Of a stretch of DNA of 64,000 nucleotides, positions 33,134 to 57,097 are shown piece by piece. The stretch is from Microcoleus sp. FACHB-672. Lineage in GTDB: Bacteria; Cyanobacteriota; Cyanobacteriia; Cyanobacteriales; Oscillatoriaceae. Both the position numbers and the translations under genes were made by a program. The stretch's first letter is position 1, and the number at the start of each line of letters is the position of its first letter. Under the pieces are notes generated by a model, which was not told where the DNA came from, did not search any database, and saw nothing but the letters and a program-made list of their open reading frames with translations. The stretch is from the NCBI RefSeq assembly GCF_014695725.1, contig NZ_JACJOU010000019.1, positions 1 through 64,000 of the forward strand, in the 5' to 3' direction.

Positions 33134-34267
33134 TTACCCCTCTGGAGTCATGCTCCGAGCCATTTGTAGATGCTCCTGTAGGAGTGGGAGCTTCTGGGCA
33201 GCCCAGGCTTTCAAATCTTGAGCCTGTCCTTGTTGAGTTTGGCTCTGGAACAAGGAGACATCCTCGGTGTGAGCGTTGACCATTTCTTGCATATAAGCTG
33301 AGTCAAACTCTCTCCCAGAAAGCTTGGACAATCGCTCCACCTTTGCTCGGTTTTCTTCGCCCATATCTGTTGGCAAAGTCAGACCTTTTTGGCGAGCTAA
33401 TTGCGTCAGTTCTTGCGTCGCTTGGGTGTGATGCTCTACCATCATTTGCCCAAACTCTTTGACTGCGTCAGATGTGGCTTTTTCTGCTGCCAGTTGACCC
33501 AGTTGGATTTCTGCTAGGTTATCTTGGGCAGCTTTCATAACGAAATCCTTGTCTGCGGTGCTCAGAGAACTTTGGGAATTTCCTCTAGCGGGATTGTTAG
33601 TCCCCCTTGCCGGCGCATTTCTCGTACCTGGAGTGTTACTGCCTTCACCTTGACGCTGCTGCATGGTGCCGGGAGTATTGCTGCCTTCACCTTGACGCTG
33701 CTGCATGGTGCCGGGGGTGTTGCTGCCTTCACCTTGACGCTGCTGCATGGTGCCGGGGGTGTTGCTGCCTTCACCTTGACGCTGCTGCATGGTGCCGGGG
33801 GTGTTGCTACCTTCACCTTGACGCTGCTGCATGGTGCCGGGGGTGTTGCTGCCTTCACCTTGACGCTGCTGCATGGTGCCGGGGGTGTTCATCTCTCCTG
33901 CCGGCCCGTTGGTGTTACTTGGGGTGTTGCTGCCCCCACCCTGACGCATCCTTTCTGGGGTGTTGGTGCCCCCACCCTGCTGTAGCCTACCTGGGGCGTT
34001 TGTTTCCCCTGCCGGTGCGGTGATATTTTCTGGGATATTCGTGTCTGTTGCCGGCCCGCTGCTGTTGTTTGGAGTATTCATAGAACCCCCAGTTTCACCC
34101 GTGGTGCCTGGAGTATTCTGAGCAATATCTAAACCTTGAGAGACAGATAGGCTAACAGTGCGAGGTGTTACATTCATCTGTGCCAATACCGGCAGACTGA
34201 TTAAGGAACTCACACTGGCGATTCCCAGAAACCCTGCTAGTTTCTTGAGGCTATTTTTGCGACTCAT
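33134..34267 (-). CDS. DUF4142-type exported protein with a 14-residue tandem repeat
   Basis: 377 residues from the ATG at 34267; an in-frame TTG at 34294 is less likely. A signal peptide (KKLAGFLGIASVSSLISLPV, cleavage near LAQ) leads into a long Asn/Thr/Pro/Gly linker rich in NTP motifs. In its middle the unit GSNTPGTMQQRQGE occurs six times (DNA 33636-33888). The C-terminal 150 residues (KDFVMKAAQDNLAEIQLGQL, FGQMMVEHHTQATQELTQLA) are a DUF4142 four-helix, ferritin-like bundle; members are periplasmic and linked to stress, with unknown biochemistry. The repeat number is likely to vary between strains. Confidence 0.85.
   Translation of the reverse strand: MSRKNSLKKLAGFLGIASVSSLISLPVLAQMNVTPRTVSLSVSQGLDIAQNTPGTTGETGGSMNTPNNSSGPATDTNIPENITAPAGETNAPGRLQQGGGTNTPERMRQGGGSNTPSNTNGPAGEMNTPGTMQQRQGEGSNTPGTMQQRQGEGSNTPGTMQQRQGEGSNTPGTMQQRQGEGSNTPGTMQQRQGEGSNTPGTMQQRQGEGSNTPGTRNAPARGTNNPARGNSQSSLSTADKDFVMKAAQDNLAEIQLGQLAAEKATSDAVKEFGQMMVEHHTQATQELTQLARQKGLTLPTDMGEENRAKVERLSKLSGREFDSAYMQEMVNAHTEDVSLFQSQTQQGQAQDLKAWAAQKLPLLQEHLQMARSMTPEG
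33636..33888. repeat. 42-bp coding minisatellite, six near-identical units
   Basis: The 42-base unit (containing CTTGACGCTGCTGCATGGTG) repeats in frame six times inside the DUF4142 gene with only scattered third-position changes, which implies recent unequal exchange or slippage. It makes all other frames look open over this stretch. Confidence 0.9.
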
Positions 34268-49879: not shown

Positions 49880-50824
49880 CTATCCCCTAAAATCCCTCCG
49901 CCGTAGTCGCAGTTGAATTTCTTCCATCAGTTTACGGTTAGCTGCCAGTAAATCAGCAACTAACCCTAAAATCCATAACTGAAAGCCCATCAAAATTAAA
50001 ATGCTAGCCAGAATTAAACTGGGAATTCGGGTACGTTCAGTGCCGGCAAAAAAATAAATCAGCCAGCGAATGCCAAGAGTTACACCCATACTAAACGGTA
50101 CGCTCCCTAAGAATAAGAAAAAGCGGAGCGGTTTGTAGACCATGAAAATCCGCAAGATAGTAAACAGGGAACGCACCACATAGGAAGGAATGCTCTTGAC
50201 CAAGCGGGAGGATCGTAACACGCCATTGGTGCGAACCGGCACAGAGGTGATAGCCATCCCTTTTTGGCCGGCTTGAATAATGGTTTCTAAGGTATAGGTA
50301 TATTCATTAAAGACATTTAACTGCATCGCCGCCTCCCGGCTAAAGGCGCGAAAGCCGCTAGGCGCATCGGGGATATTGGTATTGCTAGCAAGGCGCACCA
50401 CCCAACTGCCCAACTTCTGCAAGAATTTTTTAGCCGGCGAAAAGTGTTTGATTTCTGTAATGGGGCGTGCTCCCACCACAATTTCAGCTTGCCCTAACAG
50501 AATAGGCCGGATCAGCTGGGGAATATCCTCCGCACAATACTGATTATCTGCATCCGTGTTGACAATGATATCAGCACCGGCTTTCAGCGAAGCTTCTAGC
50601 CCTGCCATAAACGCTTTTGCTAAACCCTGGTTGCAGGAAAGACGAATAATATGTTCAACGCCACACTCCTTCGCCACTTCAAGCGTGCGATCTTGGCTGC
50701 CATCATCAACCACCAGCCACTCAATCACATCGATCCCAGGCAGTTGGCGCGGTAAGGCTGCTAGCGTGACGCCTAGGGTGTTTTCCTCGTTGTAGCAAGG
50801 AATTTGGATAATCAGTTTCGTCAT
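49880..50824 (-). CDS. GT2 glycosyltransferase with C-terminal membrane segments
   Basis: 314 residues. GT-A pattern: LIIQIPCYNEENTLGVTLAA, EWLVVDDGSQDRTLEVAKEC, SCNQGLAKAFMAGLEASLKA, IIVNTDADNQYCAEDIPQLI with the D-A-D metal site, IPDAPSGFRAFSREAAMQLN. The C terminus has two or three transmembrane helices (PLRFFLFLGSVPFSMGVTLG, SLILASILILMGFQLWILG) and a basic tail (QLRLRRRDFRG). Of the polyprenyl-phosphate glycosyltransferase kind or an inner-leaflet transferase; the sugar is unknown. On the same strand as, and downstream-facing to, the toroid-like gene. Confidence 0.82.
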   Translation of the reverse strand: MTKLIIQIPCYNEENTLGVTLAALPRQLPGIDVIEWLVVDDGSQDRTLEVAKECGVEHIIRLSCNQGLAKAFMAGLEASLKAGADIIVNTDADNQYCAEDIPQLIRPILLGQAEIVVGARPITEIKHFSPAKKFLQKLGSWVVRLASNTNIPDAPSGFRAFSREAAMQLNVFNEYTYTLETIIQAGQKGMAITSVPVRTNGVLRSSRLVKSIPSYVVRSLFTILRIFMVYKPLRFFLFLGSVPFSMGVTLGIRWLIYFFAGTERTRIPSLILASILILMGFQLWILGLVADLLAANRKLMEEIQLRLRRRDFRG

Positions 50825-51400
50825 GGGTTGAGAGGTGCTTGCTGCCCAGATTTTAGCCCCTGCCGGTGACTTCCCACACTAGCCGGTTATGAGTTGCGCC
50901 AACTTTATTGTGGGCGGCAACCGATCAGACTCCATTTAATCAGTTAACGCTCCTGCATTCACCAAGCCTCTAAAAAATTCACTCTGAGGCGCATTTACAA
51001 CCGCAGGATCGCTGCTTCACTGACTTTCTCCGCACCTCAAAACGCACTCTAAAAACATCTTGAGTATGCTTAGCATTTTTAGCTGATGTCTGTGGTATGT
51101 TGTCGAAAGTCTTGAGAAAGACAATTGGAATGAACTTAAAAGTTAATTCTAGCGTCTGCTTTTATAGAATCAATGGGGTGCAATTCGTCATGTTAATGTC
51201 ATCAATAATTTTAACTGTTATTTGGCTTTTAAACCGGCTTCTTCAAAACGTAACCGTTAAATTGCAGAGTGTACTGTCTTGCTTTATACAAAGTCCTGAA
51301 TTCGACGCTTCTGTACAGATTTCCCTCAAAACAGGTATTAAACCACCCGTAAACCTATCAGATCCCTATTTTCTGTACCTCGGAGCAGCTAATTAAGTGT
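50825..51400. other. Divergent intergenic region with a doubtful small frame
   Basis: A 99-codon frame at 51097-51396 (MLSKVLRKTIGMNLKVNSSV...) has one hydrophobic stretch (FVMLMSSIILTVIWLLNRLL) and stops four bases before the next gene, which is compatible with a small leader gene. It has no clear ribosome-binding site or family match, so confidence is low. Confidence 0.3.
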
Positions 51401-52696
51401 ATGATTCAGGAACAGGCTTTAAATATTGAAATCCCCCAATCCTCACTGGTTCCTTTGGCCTCTCTCCCTTCAACTGAACCTTGGCTGATCTACGCCCTTG
51501 GCGGCGGCTGGGGTCATTTAGTTCGCTCGCTGAGTTTCGGTCGAATTGCAGCAATTCACAGGCCCGTGATTATCCTCTGCAACAGTCCTTATGCGGCTCA
51601 ATTATTGCAATATGAAGCCTCTGATCGTCGGCTTTACGCTGATTTATTGCTTGCAAAGGAACCCGTAAAGATACAAAAACAAGAAGTAGACGAGTATTCA
51701 GGATTACTTTCTACTCTTTCTATGTTACCTTTCTCGGAAGATTTACGTTTCACCTTTGAAAATTCAGAATTCTTAGAAACAACTGAACCTTTGCCAATTG
51801 TGGAGGGATGTTATCTCCAGGTCATTTCACCCATCGCGTCATCTAGCACTATCAAAAATCAGGTGCGTCAAATGCTGGCGGAGGAGCAGTATGAGTGTGT
51901 AATTGTAGATACTTTCCCCAGAGGACTTGGCGGAGAGCTTGCAGAGATATTACCGCTATTAAGCGCCCCGAAAGTTCTAATTCATCGAGACATTAATCCG
52001 GATTATGTTGTTGCTAAGAATTTGCCGGATTTCGTTGCAGATAACTTTGATTTAGTAATTGTGCCGGGAGAAGGTGAGGAGATGCCTTTGGCAGAACTTC
52101 CCCAGGTTCGACATACTGCGCCGTGGTTGATCCGCAGCGCCGGCGAACTGCCAGATGTCACCCGCGCTAGAACTTTATTGGGTTTAAATCCCATTGACAC
52201 TAACCCGTTGATAGTGATCTGCGCTGCCGGTCGTGCTGAAGAGTTAAGCTTGTATGGCAACTTGACACGAGTGCTGGCTGAATCGCTGCCTGGAGTGACA
52301 GTGCGGTGTTTAGCGCCTGAGTGCCCAGAAAATTGTCCGGCTGAATTGTGGGTGTTTCACTGGCCGGGAATTGAATGTTTGCCGGCAGCGGATGTGGTGG
52401 TGGGAGGTGCCGGTTATAACACTTTTTATGAATGTCTTTCTGTGGGTGTTCCTTTGGTAGCGTTTGCTTTTAAACGGCAATACGACCGGCAGGAAATGCG
52501 TGTGCTACGGTGGATAGAGAATCAAGCAACTGTGCCGGTGAAGTTGGTTGAAAGTGTGGAGGGTGCACTCTCGGCTGTTTGCGATTTCCTCAATCAGGCT
52601 AAGAAATCAATATCCTCAGCTGAAATTCCAAAAGCATACATGAATGGTGCTGCCGGCGCTGTCAAACTGATTGAGCAATTTGTCAGCTATGGCTGA
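51401..52696 (+). CDS. MurG-like GT-B glycosyltransferase
   Basis: 431 residues. LIYALGGGWGHLVRSLSFGR is the Gly-rich N-terminal loop of MurG/GT28-type enzymes, where H contacts the acceptor. The C-terminal domain has NPLIVICAAGRAEELSLYG, CLAPECPENCPAELW, IECLPAADVVVGGAGYNTFY (GGAGxNT, donor-binding) and ECLSVGVPLVAFAFKRQYDR. Residues 85-200 form a variable acceptor region. Not MurG itself: too long and divergent. Lies in the glycan region, divergent from a GT2 gene; product unknown. Confidence 0.8.
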   Translation: MIQEQALNIEIPQSSLVPLASLPSTEPWLIYALGGGWGHLVRSLSFGRIAAIHRPVIILCNSPYAAQLLQYEASDRRLYADLLLAKEPVKIQKQEVDEYSGLLSTLSMLPFSEDLRFTFENSEFLETTEPLPIVEGCYLQVISPIASSSTIKNQVRQMLAEEQYECVIVDTFPRGLGGELAEILPLLSAPKVLIHRDINPDYVVAKNLPDFVADNFDLVIVPGEGEEMPLAELPQVRHTAPWLIRSAGELPDVTRARTLLGLNPIDTNPLIVICAAGRAEELSLYGNLTRVLAESLPGVTVRCLAPECPENCPAELWVFHWPGIECLPAADVVVGGAGYNTFYECLSVGVPLVAFAFKRQYDRQEMRVLRWIENQATVPVKLVESVEGALSAVCDFLNQAKKSISSAEIPKAYMNGAAGAVKLIEQFVSYG

Positions 52697-52829
52697 TGCC
52701 GGTGTCTGCGAATTCTTGATTTTTTATCCATTGCGTCGGGTGTTTCTGCAAGCCATTTACCAGATTGCTATCATTAAAACTTAAAGAGTTTTACGATCAG
52801 CGAAAAACCAATCACGCATTTAGGGTTTT

Positions 52830-53432
52830 ATGCCGTTGAAATTTTCTCAGGATATCGAGTCCCTTCTCAAACGGTTATCCGAAAAATCTATCACCCTTGC
52901 AGATATTATCATAGAAACAAAGGAACGGGGATTTAGCCTAGTTATCGGCTTACTTGCTTTACCTTTTTTGTTTCCCATGCCGCCGGGATTAACCGCTGTT
53001 TTAGGAATAGGCAGCTTACTTTTGGCCGCACAGATGGCCCTAGGCCGGCGCACCCCTTGGCTGCCCAAAAAAGTTGCTCAGTTTCAATTTCCCCACGCAT
53101 TTGTCCTGCTGCTATTAAAAAATCTCAAGAAAATCACCCGCATTTTGGAAAAATTGACCAAGCGCCGGTTGCCGCGAATCGCAGACAATCCCCGCGTTTG
53201 GCAAATTAATGGAATTTGCATTGCTTGGCTAACGCTGTTACTTATGTTGCCAATTCCTTTTACAAACCCGATCCCCACGATTGGAATTTTGCTGTTTGTT
53301 GTTGCGACTTTAGAATCGGATGGTTTATTAATTTGTATTAGCTATATCTTGACTCTTTTAATTACTTTCTTGTTTGCGTTCATTATTTATACTCTCTGGC
53401 ATACGCCCGGTTTCTTGCAAAATCTATTTTAA
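52830..53432 (+). CDS. ExoD-family exopolysaccharide-synthesis protein
   Basis: 200 residues, four or five hydrophobic segments. SITLADIIIETKERGFSLVI, LLALPFLFPMPPGLTAVLGI, LLLAAQMALGRRTPWLPKKV and the paired hydrophobic C-terminal half (LTLLLMLPIPFTNPIPTIGI, LTLLITFLFAFIIYTLWHTP) are the ExoD pattern. ExoD was described from exopolysaccharide and symbiosis mutants, its biochemistry is unknown. It precedes the structured element at 53441 without an evident terminator. Confidence 0.85.
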   Translation: MPLKFSQDIESLLKRLSEKSITLADIIIETKERGFSLVIGLLALPFLFPMPPGLTAVLGIGSLLLAAQMALGRRTPWLPKKVAQFQFPHAFVLLLLKNLKKITRILEKLTKRRLPRIADNPRVWQINGICIAWLTLLLMLPIPFTNPIPTIGILLFVVATLESDGLLICISYILTLLITFLFAFIIYTLWHTPGFLQNLF

Positions 53433-53440
53433 TAATAGTC

Positions 53441-53469
53441 TTGACAGTAGATGATGTTAGTGCTATATT
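53441..53469 (+). promoter_or_regulatory. Consensus sigma-70-type promoter
   Basis: TTGACA (53441-53446), a 17-base spacer, and TATATT (53464-53469): a perfect -35 and a five-of-six -10 at the ideal distance. Expected transcription start near 53475-53478, only some 40 bases ahead of the large stem described next and far from any coding start. Confidence 0.75.
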
Positions 53470-53475
53470 CTTTTG

Positions 53476-53800
53476 CTATGACATCTGAAGTCAGCACCTA
53501 GCTTAATACGTGGGCTGCTGTCTCAGATGCGGTATGAAAACGGCGGTTCTTGCTCTAGTAAGGTACAGACGCAATCGTCAGAAGCATTACTAGCTATAAG
53601 CCTCAAACACCCATTAAGAACCGAACAAATAGCAATTTGTGATCTAGCAAAGTACAGAGGCGCTTGTCCAAAGGGTTACTAGATCTAATCGAGGTTATAC
53701 CTTCGATGACAAAGAATTGCTACCAAGTAATACCGCACCTGAGACATCAGCTCACACCTAGCACCACCTTAAAAGTGTTCGCTTAGTGTGAGTTGTTCTC
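53476..53800 (+). ncRNA. Candidate structured noncoding RNA, two-armed, upstream of HNH gene
   Basis: No coding frame, but nested pairing throughout. Closing stem: 53514-53535 with 53730-53751, 22 positions, 20 paired. Inside are two arms of like design. Arm A: CGGTTCTT (53544-53551) with AAGAACCG (53616-53623), containing CTAGTAA (53555-53561) with TTACTAG (53587-53593), which encloses hairpin GACG/CGTC (53568-53579). Arm B: AGCAATT (53631-53637) with AATTGCT (53715-53721), containing GATCTAGCAA (53641-53650) with TTACTAGATC (53676-53685, one mismatch) and a second hairpin at 53689-53706. The inner loops of both arms share GTACAGA. A further hairpin is at 53751-53792. I cannot match it to a known riboswitch, 6S, RNase P or tmRNA. 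HEARO/omega RNA is considered but not supported by specific motifs. Confidence 0.6.
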
Positions 53801-53996
53801 ATTCTATGGACTTCCATTTAGAAAATTATCCCTATATCCTGAGTGATCCAGAAGTAGCATTCTTCGCTACTTGTGAATTGCGGTTATTGGGAAATAGTTC
53901 TCTGTGGCAAGTCTTTTGAGCAAAACTCCGTGGGCGCTAGATGCGTAATTTACCGAGGATGTCATGTTAATAAAACGCGAAAAGGAAGCGTAAACA

Positions 53997-54268
53997 TGGC
54001 AAGAATCAGTTCCAAACTAAATAAAACCAAAAAAATGAGTTCCAAGCAAAAGAAAAGCAAAAAGCGGCAACTCATAGAAAAATTTGGTTCCTGCTGTTGC
54101 TGGTGCCATAAATTTTTCCCAGAAGCTGAGGTAACACTTGATCACCTGCACCCCAGGAGCAAGGGCGGATCTAACTCTCTTGAAAACTTACAGCTTGCTT
54201 GTTTCCGGTGCAACAACTCACGGGGAAACAGTCCTTGCCCTCCCGGCTGGAAACCAGTAACCTGTTGA
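53997..54268 (+). CDS. Small HNH endonuclease
   Basis: 90 residues from the ATG at 53997 behind AAAAGGAAG; the frame is open further upstream but without a better start. A Lys/Ser-rich N terminus (about 1-27, KLNKTKKMSSKQKKSKKRQ) could bind nucleic acid. The rest is a HNH domain: GSCCCWCHKFF and ACFRCNN supply two CxxC-type zinc ligand pairs, EVTLDHLHPRSKGGSNSLEN has the catalytic D-H and the usual N, and NNSRGNSP the last conserved N. It is far too small to be IscB. It follows the structured element by about 200 bases and ends in a strong terminator. Confidence 0.85.
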
Positions 54269-54303
54269 TAACCGGCACCCAAAATTTGTAAAAATATTTC
54301 TTA

Positions 54304-54329
54304 GGCGGGTAGTCATCCTACCCGCCCTT
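54304..54329 (+). terminator. Rho-independent-type terminator of the HNH gene
   Basis: GGCGGGTAG (54304-54312) pairs perfectly with CTACCCGCC (54318-54326) over five bases, followed by CTTT. Confidence 0.75.
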
Positions 54330-54368
54330 TCCGTGCGATGAATGAACTTAATAAGAAAAGAGATAAAA

Positions 54369-55052
54369 ATGCCAAAACTTCCACAATTTAAAGATGAATC
54401 TCTTTTGCGCCTAGCACTGACTCATCGTTCTTATGTTAATGAACACCCTGATGAAAGTGAAAACAACGAACGCCTAGAATTCTTAGGTGATGCTGTGCTG
54501 GGTTATTTGGTTGGAGAACTGCTCTATAGGTATTATGATAATATGACCGAAGCACAACTCACCCGTTTACGATCTGCTTTGGTAGACGAAAAGCAGTTAG
54601 CGAAATTTGCAAGTCAGCTTGGCATTGGTGAGTTAATGCGGCTCGGTAAAGGCGCAGATAAAGATGGAGGCCGGCAAAACCCCTCTTTGCTTAGCGATAC
54701 CTTTGAAGCGATTATCGGTGCGTACTTTCTCGATTCTACTATTACTCCGGTTCGTGCTTTTGTAAAGAAGCTATTTATTCCGGTAGCAGATAGCATTGTT
54801 TGTCCCCCGTGTGATGCTGATCCTAAGAATCTCGTAGACTCGAAAAATCGGTTTCAGCAATGGGCGCTAGCAAAATTCGGACAAAATCCTGAATATGTAA
54901 TTATAGATGAAGATGGGCCGGCACACGCAAAAGAATTCACGGCTGAAGTGTATGTTAAGGGCAAAATGTACGGACTAGGCAAGGGCCGGCGCAAGCAAGA
55001 TGCTGAAAAACGTGCTGCTGAAGTTGCATTAAGAAAGGTTGGTTTGGTGTAA
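54369..55052 (+). CDS. rnc: Ribonuclease III
   Basis: 227 residues from the ATG at 54369; an in-frame ATG at 54342 would add nine. Cleaves double-stranded RNA. The catalytic domain has the signature NERLEFLGDAVLGYL (E37, D41) and the second acidic block LLSDTFEAIIGAYF; a double-stranded-RNA-binding domain follows from about 155 (SKNRFQQWALAKFGQNPEYV, EFTAEVYVKGKMYGLGKGRR, QDAEKRAAEVALRKVG). Intact and of normal length. Its position just after the structured element and HNH gene is notable because highly paired RNA is its substrate, but cyanobacteria usually carry more than one RNase III-type gene. Confidence 0.95.
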   Translation: MPKLPQFKDESLLRLALTHRSYVNEHPDESENNERLEFLGDAVLGYLVGELLYRYYDNMTEAQLTRLRSALVDEKQLAKFASQLGIGELMRLGKGADKDGGRQNPSLLSDTFEAIIGAYFLDSTITPVRAFVKKLFIPVADSIVCPPCDADPKNLVDSKNRFQQWALAKFGQNPEYVIIDEDGPAHAKEFTAEVYVKGKMYGLGKGRRKQDAEKRAAEVALRKVGLV

Positions 55053-55452
55053 TTTTAAAGTAGCTGATTATTGCTGAAGGAAAATAGCAGATTCCTATTT
55101 TCTTTAAAAAATTGATAGCGGATTTTTCTTCAGTTTTCCATAATCTAATAATTGCATCGGTTACGTTCTGTTTTAAAACAGCAGATAATAGCGCAGCTTG
55201 ATCTTAGGCATATATAAATAGATAAATGCCGATAAAGTTAATGCTTAAACGTCTTTGATTGTGGGCTTATAAAATTTTTATTTAAACACAACCGACTTTT
55301 TTACTAAATCCGCCGAGAGAAAACTTAACTCTGGCAAATGTCATCAAATCTTTAACCTTTAGAAATGCTGAAGATTTAAAAAAGAATGAGGTTTTTTAAG
55401 ACTTTCGGGGTGATGATCTAGAGTGGGTGTTTAGACAGGAGGTATCACTAAC
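55053..55452. repeat. Intergenic region with a degenerate copy of the dispersed repeat
   Basis: AACAGCAGATAATAGCGCAG at about 55177-55196, then CTTGATCTTAGGCATATA, resembles the end of the repeats at 37933 and 45474 (ATGATAGCGCAGCGTGCC, ATTAGGCATATAC). The rest is AT-rich, with the promoter of the TPR gene. Confidence 0.5.
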
Positions 55453-56925
55453 GTGAGCGCAATCCACAATGAAAAATTAGAGCTTGAATCAAATAGCAAT
55501 AGGGATTTATACCGGGAAGGTAATGCTTTTCTGGATAGAGGCCGCTACGAAGAAGCGATTGCCAGTTATGACGAAGCTTTAGAACAGGAACCGGCAGACT
55601 ATTGGGTGTGGTATAACCGGGGCATCGCTTTGGATGAATTAAACCGGCACGAAGAAGCAGCCGCCAGCTTTGGGAAAGCCTTGGAATTGCGCCCGGACGA
55701 CTACTGGGCAACTTACCAGCGCGGCGAGGCTTATCGGCACGCGCGTTGCTACGAAGACGCCTTCGCCAGCTACAATCGAGCGGTGGAACTGCGCCCCAAA
55801 GACTACTGGGCGTGGTATAAACGGGGATGTGTGGCGCTGTATGACTTACACCGGCATGAAGACGCCCTCGCCAGCTTTGAGAAAGCCATTGAAAACCGTT
55901 GGTGGGACTACTGGGCGTACTACCGGCGCAGCGAAACCCTACACCAGTTGGAACGCTATGAAGACGCTTTGGCAAGCTACAGCGAAGCGCTGGAAATGAG
56001 ACCCAATGACGCTGCCGGCTGGTACAATCGCGCTCAATTACTCGACGATTTAGGCCGGCATGAAGACGCCCTCGTCAGCTATGACTGCGCCCTCGATATT
56101 AACCCCGAACTTACCGAAGCTTGGTATCTGCGAGGCTTAGGGCTGGGAAGTTTAGGAAGTTACGCAAAAGCCATTGCCAGCTTCGAGAAAGTGCTGGAAC
56201 TACAACCTAACCACCCAGAAGCTTTGCTCAACCGCGCCATTACGCTTGATGAGTTAGAACACTTTGAAGAGTCCCTTGTCGGCTTCGATCAACTTCTCAC
56301 GATTCAACCCGACAACCCAGAAGCTTGGTTTAATCGGGGCATTGCCTTGGGCCACTTAAGCCGGCATGAAGAGGCCATTGCCAGTTACGAACACGCTTTA
56401 AAATGGCAACCTAACTATCCAGAAGCCTGGAATAACCGGGGCATGGCTTTCGATGAGTTAGGCCGTTACGAAGAAGCCATTGCCAGCTACGATCAAGCCT
56501 TAGCACGCCGGCCTGATTACGCCAGAGCACTGAATAACCGAGGCATTGCCCTCGCTAAATTAGACCGTGCCGGCGACGCCATTGCCAGCTACGATCAGGC
56601 TTTAAAATGCCCCCCAGACTATCCCGAAGCCTGGACTTGGAACAACCGCGCCCAGGCATTACGGCAGTTAGGTCGCATTGAAGACGCCCTTGCCAGTTAC
56701 GATCAATCAATGGAGATTGAACCGGAAGAACCGGATACTTGGTACGGTCAAGCTTGCTGCTATGCCTTGCAAGGAAATGTGCAACAGGCAATTGAGAAAT
56801 TAGAACAAGCAATTCTGATCGATCCCGATCAATACCGGCATCTTGCCGGCAATACTTCAGATTTTGACAGCATTCGGTCTTCAGAACAATTTCAAGCTTT
56901 GATTGAAGGAAAAAGTCACCATTGA
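55453..56925 (+). CDS. TPR protein, about 13 repeats
   Basis: 490 residues, GTG start at 55453 with AGGAGGT nine bases upstream. Nearly all of it is 34-residue TPR units of the form ASYDEALEQEPADYWVWYNR, many with D-Y-W-x-x-Y in place of the usual A-W-x-x-R-G start. The last 60 residues are a cap: WYGQACCYALQGNVQQAIEK, then DPDQYRHLAGNTSDFDSIRS and F-Q-A-L-I. The same cap ends three other proteins in this window. It should be a soluble protein-binding scaffold; no enzyme domain is attached. Confidence 0.85.
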   Translation: MSAIHNEKLELESNSNRDLYREGNAFLDRGRYEEAIASYDEALEQEPADYWVWYNRGIALDELNRHEEAAASFGKALELRPDDYWATYQRGEAYRHARCYEDAFASYNRAVELRPKDYWAWYKRGCVALYDLHRHEDALASFEKAIENRWWDYWAYYRRSETLHQLERYEDALASYSEALEMRPNDAAGWYNRAQLLDDLGRHEDALVSYDCALDINPELTEAWYLRGLGLGSLGSYAKAIASFEKVLELQPNHPEALLNRAITLDELEHFEESLVGFDQLLTIQPDNPEAWFNRGIALGHLSRHEEAIASYEHALKWQPNYPEAWNNRGMAFDELGRYEEAIASYDQALARRPDYARALNNRGIALAKLDRAGDAIASYDQALKCPPDYPEAWTWNNRAQALRQLGRIEDALASYDQSMEIEPEEPDTWYGQACCYALQGNVQQAIEKLEQAILIDPDQYRHLAGNTSDFDSIRSSEQFQALIEGKSHH

Positions 56926-57097
56926 AATGAGAAATTCTGAATGGGTGAGTGCGTGAATTTTAAAATAGATTCTTTCATTCAAAATTCACCCATTCAAAAT
57001 TATTTTCCCTTCACTTTGAATTGTGCTTGAGGGTAACACTTTCAGAGTTCAGTTCCCCTTATACTCAATTCAAATTGCACTACTGCCGGGGGTTTAG

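Follow-up and report, generated by a model that had tools for sequence, protein, structure and literature searches.

Gene organization of the locus

The window, that is the whole stretch of 64,000 nucleotides analysed here (contig NZ_JACJOU010000019.1 of Microcoleus sp. FACHB-672, positions 1 to 64,000), contains at 53441-53800 an element which lies between an ExoD-type gene (52830-53432), its 5' neighbour, and an ORF for a small stand-alone HNH protein. As a preliminary description of the locus had stated, this protein comprises 90 residues (53996-54268, plus strand; Pfam HNH, 2.8e-12). The first gene 3' of it, which had been overlooked, is an accessory RNase III gene, rnc (54369-55052, plus strand; TIGR02191, 6.1e-68). 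Its 227-aa product carries no HEPN fusion according to the domain search, and a second, distant rnc paralogue of the window genome (G000), at G000:C4:97350, is 35% identical to it. A GC-rich, terminator-like hairpin with few U residues (54304-54326, plus strand) was seen in the gap between HNH and rnc by eye only, as were hairpins in the same gap of G001, G002, G070 and G476, while a terminator scan found none between the leader and rnc.

The element itself contains no long coding frame, in agreement with the preliminary description; the ORF list gives a 51-aa ORF at 53527. Just downstream, a 37-codon open frame (53806-53919, plus strand) is probably not a gene, judging from substitution counts per codon position. 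These were 3/6/3, 3/6/3, 6/3/6 and 7/8/7 in four pairs of close relatives, 5/2/2, 3/3/2 and 2/1/1 in further comparisons, and 7/3/7 in the first 66 nt between G000 and G070. As there was no consistent excess at the third position, a leader peptide was rejected. The start codon or the frame is lost in G554, G613, G632 and G378. A relic of an rnc start was rejected as well, since the similarity to rnc N-termini was mostly at shuffle level (p 0.004-0.87). The start region of the frame is conserved in sequence across families without clear coding constraint.

An RNA family without an Rfam match

At the gathering score, no Rfam family matched anywhere in the 64,000-nt window. The sole match in a sensitive Rfam scan of 53000-54400 was CrcZ with an E value of 0.27, which is chance level and was discarded. 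The earlier impression that the element fits no familiar RNA class is thus borne out as far as Rfam is concerned.

Twenty homologues were obtained among 388 genomes of the order with a covariance model of the 3' half of the element (R1). Of 100 genomes searched at the DNA level, the window genome among them, 5 gave matches, and a 14-mer of the 5' strand occurred at 32 places in 31 of the 388 genomes. Thirty of these 14-mer loci were read, the match in G424 not being among them; nine had the partner strand together with the 3' hairpin and were kept, and the remaining ones, in which no partner strand was present and the 14-mer match appears to be coding or fortuitous, were dropped. In one family R1 matched 15 of 61 genomes, a number that includes three weak matches (G583, G605 and G611; E 0.05-0.09) later dropped for want of the 5' strand. 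A second model, R2, came out of 17 sequences without base pairs and was left unused. The final set consists of G000, G001, G002, G070, G476, G513, G547, G099, G575, G638, G629, G640, G595, G554, G589, G609, G601, G613, G632 and G378. No second copy of the element was found in its own genome at E 0.001. The element belongs to an RNA family that has no match in Rfam.

Promoter, 5' end and strand

The consensus promoter noted earlier was recovered by the motif scan as a sigma-70-type site (TTGACA-17-TATATT with a TG before the -10; 53441-53469, plus strand), and its position is conserved in the homologues. A promoter of the form TTGAC(A/G/T)...TGnTA stands 73-81 nt before the stem motif TGTCTC in 18 of the 20 homologues; it is shifted to 99 nt in G613, and none of this kind was found by the positional test in G638. 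By number alone, promoter sites of this kind are no more frequent in the region than chance would give (2 found vs 2.4 expected from shuffles). Judging from the -10 box, the RNA should start near 53476, and in the alignment 53476-53509 (plus strand) is a weakly conserved lead-in at its 5' end. The structured RNA is hence predicted to span about 53476-53800 and to be read from its own promoter.

Stretch 53478-53800 folds at -98.1 kcal/mol (z -4.3), better than 100 of 100 shuffles. The complement of the same stretch likewise folds better than shuffles (z -4.2), and the plus strand was therefore assigned from the promoter and from conserved G-U pairs, for example pair 11-70 of alignment A6, which is G-U in 17 of 20 sequences. 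When the 20 homologues were folded at full length against 30 shuffles each, z ranged from -20.4 (G002) to -0.6 (G613), with -2.1 for G378 and values between -3.8 and -16.1 for the other 17.

Compensatory changes in the closing stem

The closing stem P1 was delimited by covariation. Its 5' strand (GUGGGCUG-C-UGUCUCA followed by the distal stem) occupies 53510-53535 and its 3' strand (distal stem followed by UGAGACA-U-CAGCUCAC) 53730-53755, both on the plus strand. The stem described previously is thus real, and its length had to be corrected from 22 to 26 positions, with one usual C-U mismatch. At this length P1 spans roughly two helical turns of double-stranded RNA, if not more.

Among 19 distinct rows, 89.1% of the P1 cells are paired. 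Double changes occurred in 52 cells as compared with 19.9±4.2 after shuffling (0 of 500 shuffles as high), although such cell counts overstate the independent events because many rows are close relatives. The covariation score was 0.301 vs 0.143 in shuffles. When the partner strand was slid, at most 12 double-change cells and a covariation of at most 0.105 were reached. The number of further standard pair types, 24 vs 22.8 in shuffles, was not above chance. The motif core UGUCUC/AGACAU had been used in choosing homologues, which makes the evidence from those P1 columns circular; most of the pairs that change belong to the distal stem, and this part had no role in that choice. The element is thus a conserved RNA pairing element whose substitutions keep pairing, as had been proposed from the single sequence, and the compensatory changes looked for in cyanobacterial relatives are present in P1 of the 20 homologues.

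The variable internal domain

P1 encloses a variable internal domain (53536-53729, plus strand, from the homologue alignment), and the distance between the motif strands ranges from 34 to 370 nt in the homologues. Inside the hairpin the stem sequence changes rapidly, and only its base stays constant. No conserved pocket was seen in the enclosed domain, which differs between families. In the window genome the domain carries two arms of one plan, recognised by their mutual similarity: arm A at 53552-53594 and arm B at 53641-53685, both on the plus strand. Their likeness, pointed out in the preliminary description, is well beyond chance, with a score of 17 where 2000 shuffles reached no more than 2. 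The duplication is limited to G000 and G001; in the 18 further homologues the best local scores were 4-9, no better than those of shuffled domains.

RNase III as the constant partner

A constant association with the HNH gene had been named as a point to check. The neighbourhoods of the homologues instead single out RNase III: in 19 of the 20 loci its gene follows the RNA in the same orientation. In G589 it is a C-terminal part only, near the contig end. In the twentieth homologue, G513, the contig continues for only 570 nt beyond the RNA, and the rnc of that genome lies 269 nt from the end of another contig. Between the RNA and rnc there is an HNH gene in 7 of the 20 loci (HNH fragments in G640 and G609 being left out of this count), an NYN gene in 6 and neither in 6, and one locus is untestable; in G099 the rnc start codon follows directly behind the RNA.

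All 21 genomes compared, 15 of which bear the RNA, hold an RNase III that is 33-37% identical to that of the window. The RNA does not belong to this protein but to the closer, accessory rnc. Relatives of the accessory rnc without a recognisable leader occur in G021, G015 and G003 and at L015, L020 and other loci, and some loci hold tandem rnc copies.

These neighbourhoods bear on the readings first considered for the element, namely a guide RNA of the HEARO/omega kind that would serve the HNH protein, or a pair of tandem aptamers. A structured RNA upstream of an HNH-domain gene, as with HEARO/omega RNA and IscB, and two similar arms do speak for them. However, the HNH gene follows in only 7 of the 20 loci and is thus not a constant neighbour, L017 is an HNH-rnc pair without a recognised leader, and Rfam gave no match. 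The window protein, with its 90 aa, matches IscB in the HNH core only, at 44 bits (cut-off 175), so that the suggested IscB resemblance does not extend further. The arms, being confined to 2 of the 20 homologues and set in a space of 34-370 nt, are no general feature of the family, and the tandem-aptamer interpretation was dropped together with the guide RNA. Altogether we regard either of them, as a reading for the whole family, as highly improbable.

Retron RNA was also considered and rejected. In retrons, the msr-msd RNA has a closing stem formed from both ends around a variable inner part, as in the present RNA, and Retron-type reverse transcriptases were observed downstream of rnc in two sister genomes, at L150:2317-3747 (G632) and L151:4572-6020 (G378). 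Their best PADLOC match was RT_XIII (3.5e-189 and 1.6e-189, respectively). Unlike in retrons, the reverse transcriptase is found in only 2 of the 9 loci with ORFs listed and lies downstream of rnc; the two sister genomes are the only ones with it among the loci examined, and inspection by eye showed none among the ORFs of window positions 50000-57000.

Two RNA loci encode HEPN_Swt1-RNase III-dsRBD fusions, at L142:4968-6170 (G575; 400 aa) and L147:3526-4749 (G609; 407 aa). Further tandem rnc copies follow in both, and L147 holds four RNase III stretches, one of them partial.

Longer hairpins ahead of other cyanobacterial rnc genes

Named cyanobacterial genomes were then scanned for ungapped stems over the 1.5 kb that precede rnc. 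Stems scoring at least 50 were present at 16 of 39 loci; the controls gave them in 1 of 41 window stretches and in 3 of 36 regions on the 3' side of rnc. The strongest of the window control stretches is a long inverted repeat at 33637-33887 (score 56, two 116-position arms). Two of the 16 high-scoring loci (L063 and L066, Pseudanabaena) have a different kind of stem; the leader at L019 is of type A. A stem based on GUCUCA/UGAGAC and scoring at least 43 occurred upstream at 14 of 39 loci and downstream at 0 of 39, three of the downstream stretches being shorter than 1 kb.

The leaders could be sorted into types. Type A-like leaders were found in Planktothrix (L018, L032) and, with a changed base, at L166; type B at L027, L031, L035, L046 and L064; and type C at L028, L036, L039, L040 and L043. 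L041 shares only the motif with types A-C. In types B and C and in L041 the stems have 53-89 positions and GUCUCA/UGAGAC at their base; the base of L026 is GUCGCA/UGCGAC, and at L052 the motif lies just outside the stem. In these rnc clades the leader is one long, near-continuous hairpin. Double changes were found by RNAalifold in 13 of 67 pairs of type B and 21 of 74 pairs of type C, from five rows each. No Rfam match at the gathering score was obtained at the hairpin in eight longer-hairpin loci. Upstream of 16 hairpins, promoter hexamers with at least 10 of 12 matches were present in 7 (reached by 5% of shuffles) and with 9 of 12 in 10 (29% of shuffles), so that promoters at the longer hairpins are only partly supported.

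Like the window RNA, the longer hairpins precede NYN or HNH genes and rnc: all 16 named longer-hairpin loci have an HNH (7) or NYN (9) gene upstream of rnc. A search with the hairpin sequences found type C in 36 of 192 genomes and type B in 3 of 386. Among the 33 hairpin-found loci examined (30 of the 36 of type C and 3 of type B), rnc lay downstream in all 33, accompanied by NYN in 28 and HNH in 5; the hairpin pattern of L172 matches both arms, and NYN and rnc follow there on the minus strand. In a tree of 68 rnc proteins, types A and B each make up one side of a branch and type C (with L041) needs two changes, as counted over the labelled rows, with 32 unlabelled rows left out and the G589 row representing a different paralogue.

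Two further observations were made at these loci. A few kb downstream of rnc, three type C loci contain c-di-AMP riboswitches (RF00379; L039:5411-5628, L040:4005-4263 and L043:5098-5300). In Tychonema, inspection by eye of the region upstream of NYN-rnc (L025:1500-2110) showed what looks like another diverged leader, a long interrupted stem together with a promoter-like site.

Alternative folding of the 3' part

Computed folding of the 20 homologues predicts two forms for the P2 region (53741-53800, plus strand), a short hairpin with P1 formed or an alternative long hairpin. The long P2 pairs 53748-53757 with 53786-53795 and 53741-53744 with 53797-53800, which excludes the outer part of P1. 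It uses the CUCAC of P1 and ends a few bases before the next AUG. The full RNA of most homologues folds as P1 up to the outer pairs plus the short P2, and the 3' half alone as the long P2, best in the group from G000 to G575. Over 17 of the 20 homologues (G513, G547 and G638 being omitted), double changes in the long P2 fall in 19 cells, as compared with 7.1±2.8 after shuffling and up to 11 in slid versions. This support is uneven, as column 9-57 is U-A in 8 and C-G in 6 rows while 10-56 is broken in 10 of 17, and G638 fits P2 poorly. A switch between P1 and the long P2 is plausible from these foldings. Sequestration of a ribosome site by P2 is no more than a tentative idea, since the candidate site in the window is 13 nt away from the AUG.

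The two foldings exclude each other and each shows compensatory changes, and the sequence GUCUCA/UGAGAC is conserved inside a helix. These features would also suit a leader with another sensor, in which a ligand, temperature or another protein sets the P1/long P2 switch and RNase III is merely the regulated gene. We consider this rather unlikely: no pocket is conserved, the enclosed domain changing from family to family, the leaders of other rnc clades are long near-continuous hairpins, and the changes behind the long P2 are weaker and partial, with one pair broken in 10 of 17 rows.

A probable leader of the accessory RNase III operon

The long stem, the RNA's own promoter and its constant place ahead of rnc suggest that the RNA is a substrate of the RNase III encoded downstream, and so does the recurrence of such hairpins, in different sequence, across separate rnc clades. 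We therefore propose that the element is probably the 5' leader of the accessory RNase III operon and is cut by RNase III as a means of autoregulation. The operon transcript would start at the leader's own promoter, and the leader would form a hairpin whose long double-stranded stem has GUCUCA/UGAGAC as its base motif. The accessory RNase III would recognise and cut this stem, and the cut would remove the 5' part and free the 3' strand. In a possible second step, the freed strand could refold as the long P2 just ahead of the first start codon. Message stability or translation would fall after the cut, and RNase III would thereby repress its own operon, which often includes the small HNH or NYN nuclease gene. 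In the window genome, where the HNH gene and the GC-rich hairpin stand in between, the coupling of rnc to the leader may be partly lost.

Cleavage by RNase III, the position of the cut and the lowered expression are what we infer to be most likely by analogy with E. coli. There, RNase III is reported to cut its own 5' leader and to destabilise the rnc-era message (PMC8708148). The two systems share a structured stem at the 5' end of the RNase III-encoding transcript and feedback by cleavage, reported for E. coli and proposed here. Unlike the rnc-era leader, the present leader forms a separate RNA family with a GUCUCA/UGAGAC base, stems of up to 89 positions at other loci, a variable inner domain, an accessory RNase III paralogue as partner and an HNH or NYN gene often in between.

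RNase III is usually thought to need less sequence conservation than GUCUCA/UGAGAC shows, and the conservation of this motif hints at a further binder. A search of the open-access literature, with subscription journals mostly outside its range, found no description of leaders of this kind. A review reports that several RNase III genes occur per cyanobacterium (PMC10989914), and the words hairpin and HNH are absent from its main text.

Alternatively, the hairpin could be a separate product, a dedicated dsRNA substrate for short RNAs or for sensing of activity, with the nucleases as effectors of a defence-like module. The loci do bring a further nuclease together with the hairpin RNA and RNase III, HNH in 7 and NYN in 6 of the 20 homologues and one or the other in each of the 16 named longer-hairpin loci; HEPN-RNase III fusions occur at L142 and L147, rnc copies stand in tandem, and the inner stem evolves fast over a fixed base. 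A HEPN-RNase III fusion from Lyngbya, moreover, is discussed in connection with RNA-based defence (PMC3710099). These cyanobacterial "two-headed RNases" resemble the present system in occurring at some loci of the RNA; they differ from it in that the available part of the paper mentions no RNA leader and that the window rnc has no such fusion. On the other hand, two hairpins compared with 50,697 phage records gave no match of note, a hit to a Colwellia phage at E 0.09 being at chance level. At E 0.001 the window genome holds no second copy of the RNA. The PADLOC models matched neither rnc nor either of the two HEPN-RNase III proteins; the HNH protein and one NYN protein matched weakly and the other NYN protein not at all. 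In G099, finally, the RNA directly adjoins the start codon of rnc, the position expected of a leader. A separate product of this sort is thus unlikely. It is quite unlikely, too, that the loci represent a widespread cyanobacterial module in which RNase III acts with a further nuclease and with the hairpin RNA as its dedicated substrate. The hairpin would then report RNase III activity or be diced into short RNAs, and HNH, NYN or HEPN effectors would be released; if true, such a module would give bacteria an equivalent of a hairpin-RNA defence pathway.

With the autoregulated leader as the probable reading, a hairpin leader with a recognisable base motif, whose types follow the rnc tree, offers a testable handle on RNase III control. 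An RNA family absent from Rfam here links RNase III with small HNH, NYN and HEPN nucleases in one locus, and this linkage makes it possible to ask by experiment whether bacteria have a defence or sensing pathway based on dsRNA.
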